Assembly: GCA_944371905.1 (NCBI GenBank)
Contig: CALVYA010000003.1
Location: forward strand, 1 to 64,000
Direction of reading: 5' to 3'
DNA length: 64,000 nucleotides
Source of the DNA: an uncultured Bacilli bacterium
Lineage (GTDB): Bacteria; Bacillota_I; Bacilli_A; RF39; UBA660
In this document: positions 3 through 61,478 of the stretch, piece by piece
Layout: each line of letters begins with the position of its first letter
Position numbering within the stretch: the stretch's first letter is position 1
Position numbers and translations under genes: made by a program
The notes under the pieces: generated by a model
Databases searched by the model: none
Seen by the model: the letters and a program-made list of their open reading frames with translations, nothing else
What the model was told of the DNA's origin: nothing

Positions 3-260
3 ACAACCCAAGAAACTATATCTTCTTATGAAACTGGCAGAGTATTCCCAAGTTCCGATATGCTCATTAAACTTGCTGATTATTATAATACATCTATCGA
101 TTATTTATTATGCCGAACTAAATATAATATGCCAATAGATGATATTAAACCTAATAACATTAGCGATTACGACTTTATATTATTAAATAAAATAAATAAA
201 TTATCTAATATAAATAAAGCAAAAGTAGAAGCATATATAGATGGCTTAAATGACAATTAA
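3..260 (+). CDS. XRE-family HTH regulator, C-terminal part (cut by window start)
   Basis: The reading frame is open from the first bases of the window, so the gene starts to the left. The visible part has the second half of an HTH_3/XRE fold: a Q-E-x-I-S-x-Y-E-x-G-R recognition-helix segment followed by L-x-x-L-A-D-Y-Y-x-x-S-I-D-Y-L-L. A tail of about 45 residues follows. Such proteins are usually repressors of phage or integrative-element genes. The gene lies in the element that abuts spoIVA and converges with the Rep-like gene at 501-1337. An internal ATG at 60 gives a 66-residue ORF, but that start would cut the DNA-binding domain in half, so I reject it. Confidence 0.75.
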   Translation, partial: TTQETISSYETGRVFPSSDMLIKLADYYNTSIDYLLCRTKYNMPIDDIKPNNISDYDFILLNKINKLSNINKAKVEAYIDGLNDN

Positions 261-500: not shown

Positions 501-1337
501 TTAAAACGGGGAATTATCATCTATTATTCTATTGTTATTTATCTGTACTTTATTATCAATTTTAATATTATCATAATTTTCTGCTATCTTATTTCTTCTT
601 ACCATTGCCATAAATTCAAGTGCCTTTTTTTCATCTTCTTCTTTACTAATATTATAAAAATATTCAGATATTTCCTTAAATTTACTTTCTATCTTATTAT
701 ATTTTTCTATAAATTCTTCATCCGTCATAGGACTTTTTCTTTGTTCTTTATTTAATTTTCTTATTTTATTTTTTAATTTTAAATATTCACTACAATACTG
801 CTTTAAACTATATTTTAATGGCTCTCCATTACCATAATTATAATTACAAAATAATCTTTTAGCACTTTGATCTATAAAATAATCAGCCAATTTTATATTA
901 CAATTCTTTTTATATACTTTCTTGTTATTACTATTATTTTCACTAATATTATTATCAACATCTATCCAATTTTTATCTATATAATTTTTAATAACATTTC
1001 TAAAAGCATAACTAGGACAACTAACTAATAATATATGTAAATGCCAATCCGTCTTATAGTTTCCATTATATAATCTATTAGCAAATAAATCTTCTATTTC
1101 TAATTCTTTTCTTTGCCCACCAACTTTGCCATTATTTTTAATTTTTAATGAACTAACACCTTTTTTAACATTACTACTAACTATCAATGCTTGAGCATAC
1201 CAACCTTTATCTGCATTTTTCTTACACATATATCTAATAAACTCTCTTAATCTCTTTGCATATAAAAATGCTTCTTCGCCACTTTTAAATTTTTTATTAA
1301 CTTCTATACTCGCTATTCCTAATTTTTTCTTCGCCAT
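501..1337 (-). CDS. HUH-endonuclease (Rep-like) protein of a mobile element
   Basis: This 278-residue protein has an HUH motif (W98-H99-L-H101 followed by hydrophobic residues) and a later Y153-x3-Q157-S segment that lines up with the Tyr motif of rolling-circle initiators (Y-x-x-K-Q). The motif Lys is Asp here. HUH-Y proteins nick single-stranded DNA and become 5'-linked to it, as plasmid Rep proteins and some relaxases do. It shares its layout with the protein at 52321-53046: an N-terminal alpha/beta part, then the W-H-L-H block, then the Tyr motif. The two are therefore probable distant paralogues. A ribosome binding site (AGAAGG) precedes the ATG. The family assignment rests on motifs only. 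A role in replication or transfer of the element is inferred, and the K-to-D change raises doubt about activity. Confidence 0.6.
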   Translation of the reverse strand: MAKKKLGIASIEVNKKFKSGEEAFLYAKRLREFIRYMCKKNADKGWYAQALIVSSNVKKGVSSLKIKNNGKVGGQRKELEIEDLFANRLYNGNYKTDWHLHILLVSCPSYAFRNVIKNYIDKNWIDVDNNISENNSNNKKVYKKNCNIKLADYFIDQSAKRLFCNYNYGNGEPLKYSLKQYCSEYLKLKNKIRKLNKEQRKSPMTDEEFIEKYNKIESKFKEISEYFYNISKEEDEKKALEFMAMVRRNKIAENYDNIKIDNKVQINNNRIIDDNSPF

Positions 1338-1602: not shown

Positions 1603-2901
1603 TTATATAACTTTCAACTTCATAAATAAATTCAAATGGCTTCCTACTTCTTGCATTAACCCATCTATCAAATATTTCCACTGCATTTTTATAGTTGTTA
1701 TATGAATTGAAGGGGCTACTGCCTTTAATTTAACTCCATAACGGGAACCTTGTTTAATAATTTCAGGAGTATCTAATTTCATATCATTCAATGTAGGTGA
1801 AGCTACTCCATAGCCAGTTTGTTTTACCATTTTTAAAGCATATTTTATTTGATCATACTCAGTTTTTGCTTCATTGTATTCTTGAAATAAAGATAATAGC
1901 TCTGCTTTATTTCTAACATCAATTTTTATAATATCTTTCAATACTTTGTTATATAATTCTGAAGGTGCTTCTAAAGATACTATTACTTCACCAGTAGAAG
2001 GATCAACATTAGACAAATAAGCTTTTTCAATATTTTCATTATCTAAAAAATGTTTAGTAATATTTTCAATATCTCGTAATTTATCTACTTCTACAATACT
2101 TTCTTTAATACTATTAATATAGCTTTGTTTAATTGGATTTTTACTATTTAAAATTGCGATCCATTCAGGCATATTAACTTTTACTTCTAAAATTGGAAAT
2201 TCATATAACGCTTCTCTTAAAATATTATATATATCTTTTTCTGTCATAGATTCAATACTAATAGGCATAACTGGTACATTATGTTCTTCTTTTAATGATT
2301 CTGCCAGTCTTTCAGTCTCAGGTAATGTCGGATGGGTTGAATTTAATAAAACAATAAATGGTTTACCTAATTCTTTTAGTTCTCTTATCACTCTGTTTTC
2401 TGCCTCTAAATAATCATTTCTACTAAACTCTCCAATAGAGCCATCCGTAGTTACTACAATACCTATCGTAGAATGATCTTTAATTACTTTTTCAGTACCT
2501 AACTCTGCTGCCTCTACAAAAGGTATTTCTTCATTATACCAAGGACATTTTACCATACGAGGTCCATTTTCATCCTCAGCTCCTTTTGCATTATCAATGA
2601 CATAACCTACACAATCAATTAATCTAATGTTACAACTAAAATCATCAATTTCTACTTTAGCTGCAGTATTAGGAACGAATTTAGGCTCAATAGTCATAAT
2701 AGTCTTTCCACTAGAACTTTGTGGAATTTCATCTAATGCTCTTTTGCGTTCATATTCATCTTTAATATTAGGAACAACTAATGTCTCAATTACTTTTTTT
2801 ATAAAAGTACTCTTTCCAGTTCTAACCGCTCCTACTACTCCAAGATAAATATCTCCCCCTGTACGTTCTGCGATGTTTCTAATTATTTCATGTTTATCCA
2901 T
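1603..2901 (-). CDS. spoIVA: Stage IV sporulation protein A, C-terminally truncated at an insertion junction
   Basis: SpoIVA is the ATPase that polymerises on the forespore surface and forms the base of the spore coat. The N-terminal NTPase domain is intact, with a Walker A G-A-V-R-T-G-K-S-T near residue 24. Similarity to the family runs through the K-L-K-A-V-A-P-S-I-H block near position 1702 and then stops. The remaining ~32 residues do not match SpoIVA, and the family's last ~80 residues, ending in a conserved G-S-G-G-L-I-x-I-I-L tail, are absent. The ORF is 432 residues against about 490 in Bacillus. As it stands the protein lacks the C-terminal region normally needed for assembly. Order with spoVIF and der is normal on the right, so foreign DNA begins at the 3' end of this gene. 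Confidence 0.9.
   Translation of the reverse strand: MDKHEIIRNIAERTGGDIYLGVVGAVRTGKSTFIKKVIETLVVPNIKDEYERKRALDEIPQSSSGKTIMTIEPKFVPNTAAKVEIDDFSCNIRLIDCVGYVIDNAKGAEDENGPRMVKCPWYNEEIPFVEAAELGTEKVIKDHSTIGIVVTTDGSIGEFSRNDYLEAENRVIRELKELGKPFIVLLNSTHPTLPETERLAESLKEEHNVPVMPISIESMTEKDIYNILREALYEFPILEVKVNMPEWIAILNSKNPIKQSYINSIKESIVEVDKLRDIENITKHFLDNENIEKAYLSNVDPSTGEVIVSLEAPSELYNKVLKDIIKIDVRNKAELLSLFQEYNEAKTEYDQIKYALKMVKQTGYGVASPTLNDMKLDTPEIIKQGSRYGVKLKAVAPSIHITTIKMQWKYLIDGLMQEVGSHLNLFMKLKVI
1695..1712. other. Candidate element/spoIVA junction
   Basis: SpoIVA similarity ends after the His codon at 1702-1704. DNA to the left is AT-rich element DNA without SpoIVA coding content in any frame I could read. 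This marks one end of an inserted element. The partner junction with the 3' part of spoIVA is not in the window. Confidence 0.6.
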
Positions 2902-2967: not shown

Positions 2968-2992
2968 TAAAAATAGTGATTTATCACTATTT
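2968..2992 (-). terminator. Rho-independent terminator after spoVIF
   Basis: A near-perfect stem (AAATAGTGA/TCACTATTT) with a 4-base loop is followed on the minus strand by a T-rich tract. It separates spoVIF from spoIVA. Confidence 0.7.
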
Positions 2993-3230
2993 ATAACATT
3001 TCATCTAAATTTTTAGGCACATCATCTTTGACAATAGCATTAATTATTTTATTCGTCTTCTCTTCACTAACTTCTTTCCCTGCTACTTGTGAAATTTCTT
3101 TAATTAAATCTCTCAATACTTTTTCGTCTTTCATATTAGAATTTTGAACTTTAGAAGCTAAAGACATAATGGTTTCTTTATTTACATTAGTCTTTTTCTC
3201 TACCTTATTAAAAAAAGAATCACCAAACAT
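2991..3230 (-). CDS. spoVIF: Stage VI sporulation protein F
   Basis: This 79-residue protein matches the SpoVIF family in length and pattern: an N-terminal F-x-K-V-E-K-K-T-x-V block, D-E-K-x-[LV]-R-x-L-I-K, a G-K-x-V-S-x-E-K segment and a closing I-V-K-D-x-V-P-K. In Bacillus SpoVIF takes part in late coat assembly. It starts with a strong ribosome binding site (AGGAGG) and lies between der and spoIVA, so three neighbouring genes combine an essential GTPase with two spore genes. A terminator follows its stop. Confidence 0.8.
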   Translation of the reverse strand: MFGDSFFNKVEKKTNVNKETIMSLASKVQNSNMKDEKVLRDLIKEISQVAGKEVSEEKTNKIINAIVKDDVPKNLDEML

Positions 3231-54881: not shown

Positions 54882-56015
54882 TTATGCAGGTATAATAAGA
54901 ACCTGACCGATAGTTAATAAATCTGATGTCAAATTATTTAATCTTCTAATAGCATCTACTGTAGTGTTATAAGTTCTAGCAATATTATATAAATTATCTC
55001 CATTTTTTACATAATAAGTAATGTAACTTTCAGTAGTAGGGATTTTTAATACTTGCCCAATGGTGAGTAATGTAGATGGTAAGTTATTGTATCTTTGTAA
55101 TTCACTTGCCGTGATACCATATCTTTTTGCAATACTATATAAGCTATCTCCACTTTTTACAACATACTCAATTACGTTGCTAGATGGTGGTGTAGATGGT
55201 TCTTCTGGTTCTTCGGTAGTACCAGGAATAATTAATACATCTCCTATTTGTAAAATGGTATTAGTCAAATTATTAGCACTAATTAGTTCATCTACTGTAA
55301 TTCCATATTGATTAGCTATTTTCCATAAGCTATCTCCTGGTTGTACTGTATATGTAATATTATTACCTGTATTTGGAGTAGTTGGTATTAATAATTGTTG
55401 ATTAACGGAAAGAACTGTTGAAGGTAATTGATTAAATTCAATAATATCATTTACACTTATTCCATATTGATTAGCTATTTTATATAAGGTATCTCCACTT
55501 TTTACAGTATATACTATATATTCTCCTGGTGGAGTTACTTCTGGTGTTGTTTGTGGAATTTTTAACATCTGACCAACTGTTAATAAATTAGAAGTTAAAT
55601 TATTAGCACTTTTTAACTCATCTACTGTTATACCATATTTAGAAGCAATAGAATATAGTGAATCTCCTTTTTGCACTATATATACATTGCTACTAGAGCC
55701 TTCTGGCGGTGTATAAGGTACCCCTATATAGTTTGCTACTGCTCTTACTACAGCTTCACCATAATCCAACAGGTTATTTTGAAGTTTTTTTAGATCATTA
55801 GCATTATCGATAAATCCATATTCAATGAGTAATGGCTGAGTATTACCAGTTAATCTATGTATATAATAATAATCTTTTGAAGTATCACTTGGTAGTCTTC
55901 TTTGATAATACTTTCTCATTTTTTGACCTTCAGCACCAATTGATTCTAAAACACTTCTAGCTAAAGTCGAATCATTTCTAAGAGCATAGATTATTTCAGC
56001 ACCTTCCCCACCCCA
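54882..56015 (-). pseudogene. 5'-truncated N-acetylmuramoyl-L-alanine amidase with five LysM repeats
   Basis: The frame is open to about 56015, upstream of the ATG at 55919. It encodes G-G-E-G-A-E-I-I-Y-A-L-R-N-D-S, L-L-I-E-Y-G-F-I-D-N and the rest of an Amidase_3 catalytic domain, followed by five LysM repeats (each ~45-50 residues, G-D-S-L-Y-x-I-A cores). The N-terminal half of the enzyme, including the zinc-binding His motif, is absent. Coding similarity begins at the junction with the KAP gene. As it stands the protein cannot be a complete amidase. It lies near cwlJ, so a role in spore wall or cell-wall turnover is plausible. Confidence 0.75.
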
Positions 56016-57707: not shown

Positions 57708-58646
57708 CTACATCATTTCTAAATATTTTTTCAACATTTCAACTTCTAACTTAGTAACTAGTTTAACAAAATCTGTATAATTACTAGTTGTGTGTGCTTT
57801 GTCTAATGCTTCATAATATTTCAATCTTGATTCTTTCTTTATAATTACAGGATTATATCCACTATTCATAAGATCTAAATTCATAAGTAATCTTGAGGTT
57901 CTACCATTACCATCTACAAATGGATGTATTTTAACTAACTCTCCATGTAATAATGCAGCTTTAATTATAGGATGATATTCATTCCAAGTTTTATAAGTTA
58001 AGATTAACTTTTCCATTAATTCTGGTATTTTAATATAATCTGGCGGAATATGTGATGCTCCTTTTATACTCACATTCTCTTTTCTATATCTTCCAGCATT
58101 TTCATTGTCTATATCTTTTAAAATTAATTGATGAATATTTTTTATATTCCATTCAGTTATTGGATTTGTATCTTTAACAATATCATCTAAATACAAAATT
58201 GCCTTTTCATGGTTTATTGCTTCCAAATGTTCTTTAATTGATTTACCACCAACTGTAATACCTTCTAAAACAACTTGTGTTTCTCTTAAAGTCAAAGTAT
58301 TACCTTCAATCCCATTGCTATTGTAAGTCCATTCTAAATTTATTGATTCTTTTAAAGATTTAATAGTTTCTTTAGATAAAGGTCTTTTTTTATCCAATTC
58401 TTCTTTTAATTTATCTACTTCATCAAAATAATCTTCTTTCAACTCAATTATAAAATTATTATCATCAGGTTTAATAATTCTTTTATCTACCGGTTTTTCT
58501 GCATCAATAGGAATATTCCAACTACTTCCAACTTTAACCGCACCTTCAATTCTGCCTTCTGCTAATAGTTGTCTAATTCTTCTTTCACTAATATTCCATT
58601 TTTCTACTGCTTCTTTTGTAGTCATATAGTTCATATTTTTCACCAT
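57708..58646 (-). CDS. Fic protein with N-terminal HTH and inhibitory motif
   Basis: Fic enzymes transfer AMP or another nucleotide to target proteins. The HPFxxGNGRxxR active site is complete (H241-P-F-V-D-G-N-G-R-T-S-R). An inhibitory S-x3-E-G helix lies upstream in sequence (S110, E114), so the enzyme should be self-restrained. Residues ~7-50 look like a MerR/excisionase-type HTH (M-T-T-K-E-A, S-E-R-R-I-R-Q-L-L-A-E-G-R). That region could bind the operators at the operon promoter. The ATG at 58634 with GGTG upstream may be the true start rather than 58646. Confidence 0.88.
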   Translation of the reverse strand: MVKNMNYMTTKEAVEKWNISERRIRQLLAEGRIEGAVKVGSSWNIPIDAEKPVDKRIIKPDDNNFIIELKEDYFDEVDKLKEELDKKRPLSKETIKSLKESINLEWTYNSNGIEGNTLTLRETQVVLEGITVGGKSIKEHLEAINHEKAILYLDDIVKDTNPITEWNIKNIHQLILKDIDNENAGRYRKENVSIKGASHIPPDYIKIPELMEKLILTYKTWNEYHPIIKAALLHGELVKIHPFVDGNGRTSRLLMNLDLMNSGYNPVIIKKESRLKYYEALDKAHTTSNYTDFVKLVTKLEVEMLKKYLEMM

Positions 58647-59816: not shown

Positions 59817-61478
59817 TTAGCTATTTTTACCCTTCCTTCCATAAGGATTTCTTACTTTATTTTTATCAATATAAACAAATTCTATTTGAGGTATAACATC
59901 ATATTTAAATTTAATAGTAATATTTCTGTCTTTATCTATTACTATCTTATCTATCAAAGCTTCTATTAATTCTCTTTTAGGTTTATTTAAATCTAATAAT
60001 TCTTTAATCTTTTTAATGTAATTTGGTAATATACTTTGATTATTTCTTGAAGTATATTTTTTTAATTCTTCTTCATCGATTCTTTCAACAATTTGTTTTA
60101 ATTTCAATTCAAATGGACTAGCTAATTCTTTATAAACATTAACAGATATTACGCCATCACACCTATCGTTATATAACATAGATATTTTATTAGTAATCTT
60201 TTCTTTTTCTACTTTTAAACTTTTTATAACTTCATCTATACTTTCCTTTTCTTTATGAATATTCTTTGTTATTTCATTATTTAATTCTTCTAAATCTAAG
60301 CCATTAACTAATTCAGATACTACATAATTAATCTTTTCTAGTATTTGTTTTTCTAAATAGTTATACGGAAAGAAATGAGAATAGCATCTACCTCTAACTG
60401 GATCTCTAGAATATCTATTACAGTTGATAGACCAATAATCCTTATTTCTTCTATAAAGTACTGTTAGTCTATTACCACATTCTTTACAAAATAATTTACC
60501 TTCTAATATTCTTTTTTCTCTTTTTGTTTTAATTTCATAATTTCTAGTTTTTCTTTTTCTTAAAATATTAACATAATTAAAAGTTTCTCTATCTACTAAT
60601 GCTTCATGAGTATTTTCTACAATAGTCCATAATTTTTCATCAAGTGTTATTTTCTTCTTTGATTTATAATTAACTTTAGTTTGAACATGTTGTACCATAT
60701 CACCAGTATATATTCTATTGGCTAATATCTTTTTTACTGTTGTAATATTCCAAGTATCTCTATCAATAAGTTGTAATGAATAAGAAGTCTTTTTATAGCC
60801 ACTTGGAGTTGGCACTTTCATTTCATTTAGTTTATTTGCTATTTCAGTAGCTCCCACTCCATTAGCTCTTAATTTAAATATTTCTTTGACTATCCAATCA
60901 GTTTCTGGATTAGGTATTAAATGACCTTTGTCTTCTGGATCTCTCATATAACCAAAACTAGGTAAACTTCCTACAAACTTTCCATTTAATCTTTTTTGAT
61001 TTAATACTGCTCTAATCTTAACTGAATTTTGTTTACTATAATAATCATTACACGCAATAATAAAAGTAGATGAATCATTACTAGCTTGTTCTTTAAATGT
61101 ATCAACTGATTCTGATATAGAAATAAATCTAATATTATTTTCCGGAAAAAATGTTTCTGTATAATATCCAGTCATAACATGATCTCTTCCAAATCTTGAT
61201 AAATCTTTAACTATTACACAATTTATCTCTTTATTTTTTATATCTTCTAGCATTTTTTTAAATGCTGGTCTATCAAAATCAGTACCAGAAAAACCATCAT
61301 CTACATATTCTTTAATTAAATTAAAATTATTATTTTTTACATAACCCCTTAATAATTCTTTTTGATTTATTACACTTTCACTATCAGATTCATATTTTTT
61401 GTCTCTATCTTCTTGAGATAATCTTATATAGATTCCAACTCTGAAATCCATATTATTTAAGTAAGTATTATACATCAT
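59817..61478 (-). CDS. Large serine recombinase
   Basis: The 553-residue protein has the resolvase catalytic domain with S21 in Y-I-R-L-S-Q-E-D, the F-S-G-T-D-F-D-R-P-A-F block and K-D-L-S-R-F-G-R. A recombinase domain and zinc ribbon follow (C-K-E-C-G near residue 330, with two more Cys), then a coiled-coil region (~400-490). It can catalyse integration and excision between att sites without homology. A second ATG at 61475 is better spaced from GGAGG. It is the likely integrase of the element beginning at ~56.01 kb, although it lies 4 kb from that end. Confidence 0.93.
   Translation of the reverse strand: MMYNTYLNNMDFRVGIYIRLSQEDRDKKYESDSESVINQKELLRGYVKNNNFNLIKEYVDDGFSGTDFDRPAFKKMLEDIKNKEINCVIVKDLSRFGRDHVMTGYYTETFFPENNIRFISISESVDTFKEQASNDSSTFIIACNDYYSKQNSVKIRAVLNQKRLNGKFVGSLPSFGYMRDPEDKGHLIPNPETDWIVKEIFKLRANGVGATEIANKLNEMKVPTPSGYKKTSYSLQLIDRDTWNITTVKKILANRIYTGDMVQHVQTKVNYKSKKKITLDEKLWTIVENTHEALVDRETFNYVNILRKRKTRNYEIKTKREKRILEGKLFCKECGNRLTVLYRRNKDYWSINCNRYSRDPVRGRCYSHFFPYNYLEKQILEKINYVVSELVNGLDLEELNNEITKNIHKEKESIDEVIKSLKVEKEKITNKISMLYNDRCDGVISVNVYKELASPFELKLKQIVERIDEEELKKYTSRNNQSILPNYIKKIKELLDLNKPKRELIEALIDKIVIDKDRNITIKFKYDVIPQIEFVYIDKNKVRNPYGRKGKNS

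Follow-up and report, generated by a model that had tools for sequence, protein, structure and literature searches.

Interruption by an intervening element has been described for several sporulation genes, namely sigK, spsM, spoVFB, spoVR, gerE and yabG (PMC5595907, PMC6957869, PMC10747680). In sigK, the excision of skin or of skin-Cd is specific to the mother cell, and in C. difficile it needs a recombination directionality factor (RDF; PMC5025042). The locus described here, spoIVA, resembles sigK with its skin element (in B. subtilis, and as skin-Cd in C. difficile) in that a sporulation gene lies in two in-frame halves and the element encodes a large serine recombinase (LSR). The skin target is a sigma factor gene, however, whereas spoIVA encodes a morphogenetic ATPase; the spoIVA element is also only ~7 kb long, is not a prophage, encodes a Rep and has been mobile recently, and we only infer that its excision would be specific to sporulation. 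The gin element in gerE of B. cereus ATCC10987 is likewise not a phage, carries more than one serine recombinase and has a short, 9-bp direct repeat at its junctions (PMC5595907), but it spans 28.6 kb and 31 genes as compared with ~7 kb, occupies a different gene, and has been demonstrated to excise, which is predicted here. SPbeta in spsM, vfbin in spoVFB, the spoVR element and yin in yabG are similar in that a mobile element sits in a mother-cell gene that a recombinase rebuilds (PMC6957869, PMC10747680), although these are mostly prophages or prophage-like, and the genes are different. In line with the first-pass annotation of this DNA, which knew of no established case in spoIVA, we found none in the open-licence literature, and with no such report found spoIVA would be a new target among the interrupted sporulation genes.

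A truncated spoIVA and its missing 3′ end

The window, that is the whole stretch of 64,000 nucleotides analysed, corresponds to positions 1-64000 of contig C3 of genome G000 (1.29 Mb in 43 contigs), and its base 1 is the end of that contig. An open reading frame at 1603-2901 on the minus strand, with its stop at 1603, encodes a SpoIVA of 432 aa that matches the Pfam families SpoIVA_ATPase (PF09547, residues 1-236) and SpoIVA_middle (PF20438, residues 238-403), but reaches only position 406 of the 492 in the TIGR02836 spore_IV_A profile, all of which (1-492) are covered by the protein of the genus-mate G001. In the genus-mates G001-G003, SpoIVA is ~491 aa long (open frames of 498-503) and 92-97% identical up to the break, with 97% identity between the window protein and that of G001. 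Past this point the genus-mates read IHMIRVDV...NNLIAIVI, whereas the window protein departs after ...APSIH and, following PSIH, ends in a 32-residue foreign tail, ITTIKMQWKYLIDGLMQEVGSHLNLFMKLKVI. The first-pass annotation had thus correctly placed the change from intact similarity to an unrelated tail at APSIH, and the C-terminus is absent as it had stated, although the missing part amounts to about 92 residues rather than ~80.

The spoIVA 5′ part (codons 1 to about 400) occupies 1700-2901 on the minus strand and ends in the attL core, CATAT (1700-1704, minus strand), where an 8-bp repeat, ATTCATAT, is common with the attR of the same genome. The 32 codons that close the truncated gene (1603-1699, minus strand) recur as the same tail after PSIH in G364, and the same DNA is found beyond the core in G191, G203, L145 and L148; on these comparisons the tail is element DNA. 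The shortened, 432-aa SpoIVA probably does not function. No relative of SpoIVA was returned from the PDB. Outside the element, the neighbouring sporulation gene SpoVIF (PF14069, 5.4e-24) lies at 2991-3230 on the minus strand. The left end of the element (1-1699), cut by the contig end at base 1, shows 98% identity with one end of the complete G191 element and includes both genes that had been noted to the left of spoIVA: the 3′ part of an XRE-type repressor gene (3-260, plus strand; HTH_3, 4.3e-07), of which the full gene encodes 126 aa in G191, and a putative Rep-like replication protein (501-1337, minus strand) with HLH and YxxK motifs recognised by eye and no Pfam or PHROG family match.

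As the first base of the window is also the end of its contig, the missing 3′ end of spoIVA is not simply to be found on the left, where the earlier reading had expected it. A search of the same genome with the SpoIVA C-terminus located it, next to an abutting recombinase gene, on contig C11, as an intact 91-codon piece (C11:35548-35820) within an open frame of 103 codons (C11:35548-35826, minus strand). From its ATG onwards this piece encodes a protein 100% identical to that of G001, and the sequence past the spoIVA stop resembles the intact G001 locus. Directly upstream, with an overlap of about 30 bases, a 552-aa LSR gene abuts attR; its product has Resolvase (PF00239) and Recombinase (PF07508) domains and a Zn-ribbon match just below the cut-off. 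Beyond the LSR lie a 91-aa ORF and the gene for a 200-aa serine resolvase, after which the contig stops. Taken together, C3:1-1704 and C11:35819-38626 make up both ends of a single element, whose right end, identified by the own-genome search, lies off the window at C11:35824-38626. The two contigs are linked through synteny and relatives and not by a single contig; the central part of the element is missing from the G000 contigs, and the G000 assembly contains no sequence corresponding to the middle of the element in G191. At 1364-1510, a region containing TATAAT shows ~76% identity to the sequence that precedes the small ORF and LSR operon (C11:37859-38002), and this repeat is possibly a promoter or operator shared by the Rep and LSR operons.

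Recurrence of the element and a second insertion site

Screening other genomes revealed the whole element in G191, which belongs to another genus, with about 7-7.6 kb between junctions and the order LSR, 91-aa ORF, resolvase, 77-aa ORF, KAP NTPase, macro-domain protein, 188-aa ORF, XRE regulator and Rep-like gene. No phage structural gene was identified by Pfam among the ORFs of this complete element, and those of its ORFs checked against PHROGs matched only integrase/invertase. An LSR scan of GTDB species genomes yielded five loci, every one of them at the same spoIVA site, hereafter site 2. Both junctions are on one contig at L145 (7,124 bp), L147 (6,242 bp), L148 (7,125 bp) and L146 (7,115 bp), the last being the same contig as G364:C70, which gives single-contig insertions in four genomes (L145, L147, L148 and G364) among the eight occupied at site 2 (these four with G000, G191, G203 and G099). 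The split of spoIVA near its 3′ end by a mobile element, as proposed in the first-pass annotation, is seen as identical junction DNA in independent genomes, far beyond what chance would produce. Neither was a 3′ fragment wanting nor did close relatives have the same short SpoIVA without an element, the two outcomes that the annotation had set against its own reading; close relatives with intact spoIVA were found, sister species included.

Hosts with much more divergent flanks carry element DNA that is about 97-100% identical, so that the element moves horizontally, and it has recently entered the same site in several genera. The element ends of G191 and G000 share 97-98% identity as against only 77% for the SpoIVA C-terminus, and between L145 and L148 the element is 98.5-100% identical and the flanks mostly 68-88%, a contrast from which the insertions are recent and independent. 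The cargo differs, with a 262-aa ORF in G364 where the KAP NTPase stands elsewhere, and G099 carries at the same site a distant LSR (48% identity, internal stops) with different cargo. In G203, the contigs at L112 and L113 stop 66 and 62 bases inside the element, which, with the core-shared bases added, would fit a 77-base overlap; these contig ends suggest that the same element occupies several spoIVA contexts within that sample.

We then surveyed SpoIVA across a set of 145 genomes, with nearly one for each genus, and across 80 others. This identified a further position, site 1, at codon ~120 (the Trp of K-T-P-W), where reading of the junction DNA showed spoIVA to be split in 19 genomes: G177, G333, G393, G255 and G188, in which the insertion is contiguous on one contig, together with G364, G286, G040, G071, G107, G229, G374, G065, G272, G251, G240, G231, G111 and G129. 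The LSRs of site 1 share only 23-27% identity with the site-2 family, and in G364 spoIVA is split at both sites by unrelated LSR elements (L110 on G364:C70, L111 on G364:C7). In total, spoIVA is split in 26 distinct genomes including G000, that is in at least 25 relatives, and in the genus-level sample in 8 of the 124 SpoIVA-bearing genomes (G000, G099, G065, G071, G107, G111, G129 and G040), making split spoIVA frequent in a large uncultured lineage. A contig break near the site in G013 shows two different sequences, probably from mixed species, and is not counted as a split. In G118, G270 and G300 the contigs carrying spoIVA also break, at a distance from the att sites, and we took these breaks as ordinary.

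The site-2 LSR shares its Resolvase, Recombinase and Zn-ribbon architecture with LSRs of gut mobile elements and phages (PHROG 95 integrases; Ccr-like), but no phage record matches more than 80% of the protein, and the best identity is below 60%. Its close relatives (≥69%) were found only inside spoIVA. IMG/VR holds no close relative of the site-2 LSR, and the relatives of site-1 LSRs found there (30-44%) are without spoIVA. Phage record MT837325 (7,121 bp) proved unrelated to the element apart from a 51% match in the LSR.

Attachment sites and signs of empty sites

In G000, attL reads ...CCTTCAATTCATAT|AACAACTATAAAAATGCAG and attR ...AGTTTAATAGTTCTTATTCATATGATAAGAG. A short sequence of the kind that the first-pass annotation had proposed to look for, ATTCATAT, is common to both junctions, and joining the flanks in silico gives an in-frame SpoIVA of 491 aa. 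Across the six site-2 cases that can be joined from the first codon, an uninterrupted SpoIVA of 489-491 aa is obtained, and the frame is also restored in at least 14 site-1 cases. With the LSR gene set against attR, a common core and in-frame joining, the insertion of the LSR element into spoIVA is site-specific, and from the junctions the attB of the site-2 element is a short conserved stretch of spoIVA coding sequence, the codons for S-I-H-M. The attP reconstructed from G191 is an inverted repeat with its centre at C|A and symmetrical at 30 of 40 positions, a degree of symmetry matched by 2 of 2000 shuffles, and CA is the probable crossover dinucleotide; the same dyad test on the site-1 attP gave no significance. 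At L032:15789-15820, the final LSR codons are supplied by the spoIVA side of attR. The C-terminus of the LSR therefore depends on the host (552 aa in G000, 544 in G191 and 546 in G364), and excision would alter it.

In five assemblies (G191, G006, G209, G309 and G159), contigs end exactly at the positions that coexisting occupied and empty sites in the sample would predict. The G191 contig reaches exactly 77 bases into spoIVA, counted back from the last base common to occupied and empty sites; SPAdes usually works with k-mer lengths that include 77, and the G191 record bears SPAdes-style NODE naming. At site 1, G006 and G209 are cut at TGG, with one contig ending ...CCATGG or ...CCTTGG and its partner beginning TGGTAT; a G309 contig begins TGGTAT, and in G159 the TGGTAT contig has an overlap of exactly 141 bases with another that continues through the empty site. 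If breaks fell at random over the gene, 4 of about 18 (our own tally across the SpoIVA surveys) would coincide at one base with a probability near 1e-9, for a site chosen post hoc. These flush ends fit branch points in the assembly between occupied and empty alleles, and the coexisting empty sites could reflect a mixture of strains instead of excision. In the G006, G159, G209 and G309 bins, no contig with a site-1-type LSR was found.

Excision, its control and other readings

We consider it reasonably probable, if well short of assured, that an LSR element has inserted into its attB within spoIVA, and that the LSR with an RDF would excise it precisely, rebuilding spoIVA in at least some mother cells. 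The 91-aa ORF that directly precedes the LSR is the candidate directionality factor, a guess from its position and size; this ORF of the LSR operon gave no informative family match. Excision in at least some mother cells would allow spore-coat assembly to proceed, the forespore genome would keep the element as it keeps skin in sigK, and the excised circle could be replicated or passed on by the element's Rep. Carriers would probably have to remove the element to form normal spores.

Because spoIVA is a mother-cell (sigma-E) gene, the genes for sporulation sigma factors are retained and intact, with an uninterrupted match to the SigK model, and the order RF39, to which this family probably belongs, is predicted to sporulate, control of excision by sporulation is plausible. 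Spore formation itself is a prediction (PMC10868615 for the order RF39), since these lineages are uncultured. By eye, a sigma-E-like promoter precedes spoIVA here, which also favours such control; against it, none was found upstream of the site-2 small ORF or LSR, where the promoter-like sequence has a housekeeping look; the site-2 LSR operon may instead have a promoter under repressor control. In site-1 elements (L105-L109, L116-L119 and others), the small ORF preceding the LSR has a conserved CATACAAT/CATAAAAT box immediately ahead of it; this CATA-type box resembles a sigma-E -10 element with no clear -35, and the sequences compared are related.

A false split, produced by mis-assembly or by binning contigs of different organisms together, might be suspected given that the data are MAGs and the G000 junctions lie on two contigs. 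It is refuted in substance and can be given practically no weight: the same junctions recur to the base in independent assemblies, the 3′ piece encodes a protein identical to that of G001 and is followed by G001-like sequence, and insertions contiguous on single contigs at both sites show that no assembly artefact is involved. It is also very unlikely that the 432-aa protein is a natural, functional short variant and the 3′ piece a relic. Its reading frame is intact to the stop at 1603, but the genus-mates have 491 aa, its tail matches element DNA, and the C-terminal fragment shows conservation: between G000 and G001 its codons differ by 27 synonymous changes and 0 non-synonymous ones (104 and 6 in the 5′ part). 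As the insertions look recent, this synonymous excess cannot be dated to the time after insertion.

Less easily set aside, although we think it rather unlikely, is that an ordinary integrative element uses spoIVA as a handy conserved attB, disabling sporulation and excising according to its own XRE-repressor switch. The many recent, horizontally acquired insertions, the site-2 LSR operon with no sigma-E-like promoter and the repeated TATAAT-containing region upstream of both the Rep and LSR operons are in keeping with this, and gut anaerobes may tolerate the loss of sporulation. However, in the carriers whose junctions were checked both halves of spoIVA keep an open reading frame, sporulation sigma genes are retained, a single sporulation gene is the common target of two unrelated LSR families and of one double insertion, and the contig ends flush with the att core suggest coexisting empty sites. 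Excision that rebuilds spoIVA in mother cells is thus the reading we prefer. Its extension, in which spoIVA in this family of uncultured gut Bacilli serves as a standing landing pad with two sites for unrelated, stackable LSR elements, which leave when the mother cell reaches the spoIVA stage, a gate that comes before sigK, is more tentative, and we hold it at slightly under even chances; if true, mobile elements would control spore-coat assembly across many genera. Two LSR families, two att sites and a double insertion raise the question, testable by reads, of why mobile elements settle in mother-cell genes. In addition, automated annotation will label genomes with split spoIVA as spoIVA-defective, and the loci supply new LSR/att pairs.

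Finally, contig C3 carries a second split gene. This gene is N-acetylmuramoyl-L-alanine amidase-like, has five LysM repeats and is interrupted by an LSR element of ~12 kb, its 3′ half being at 54882-56012 of the window (minus strand) and its 5′ half at G000:C3:68165-68455 (minus strand). This element encodes a Fic protein (57708-58646), an LSR (59817-61478) and a DNA methyltransferase-like ORF (from 63088), and its junctions share GGTGGGGA. In all five of the five genus members, the amidase gene breaks at the same codon (NHINAGG|) and continues into differing sequences.
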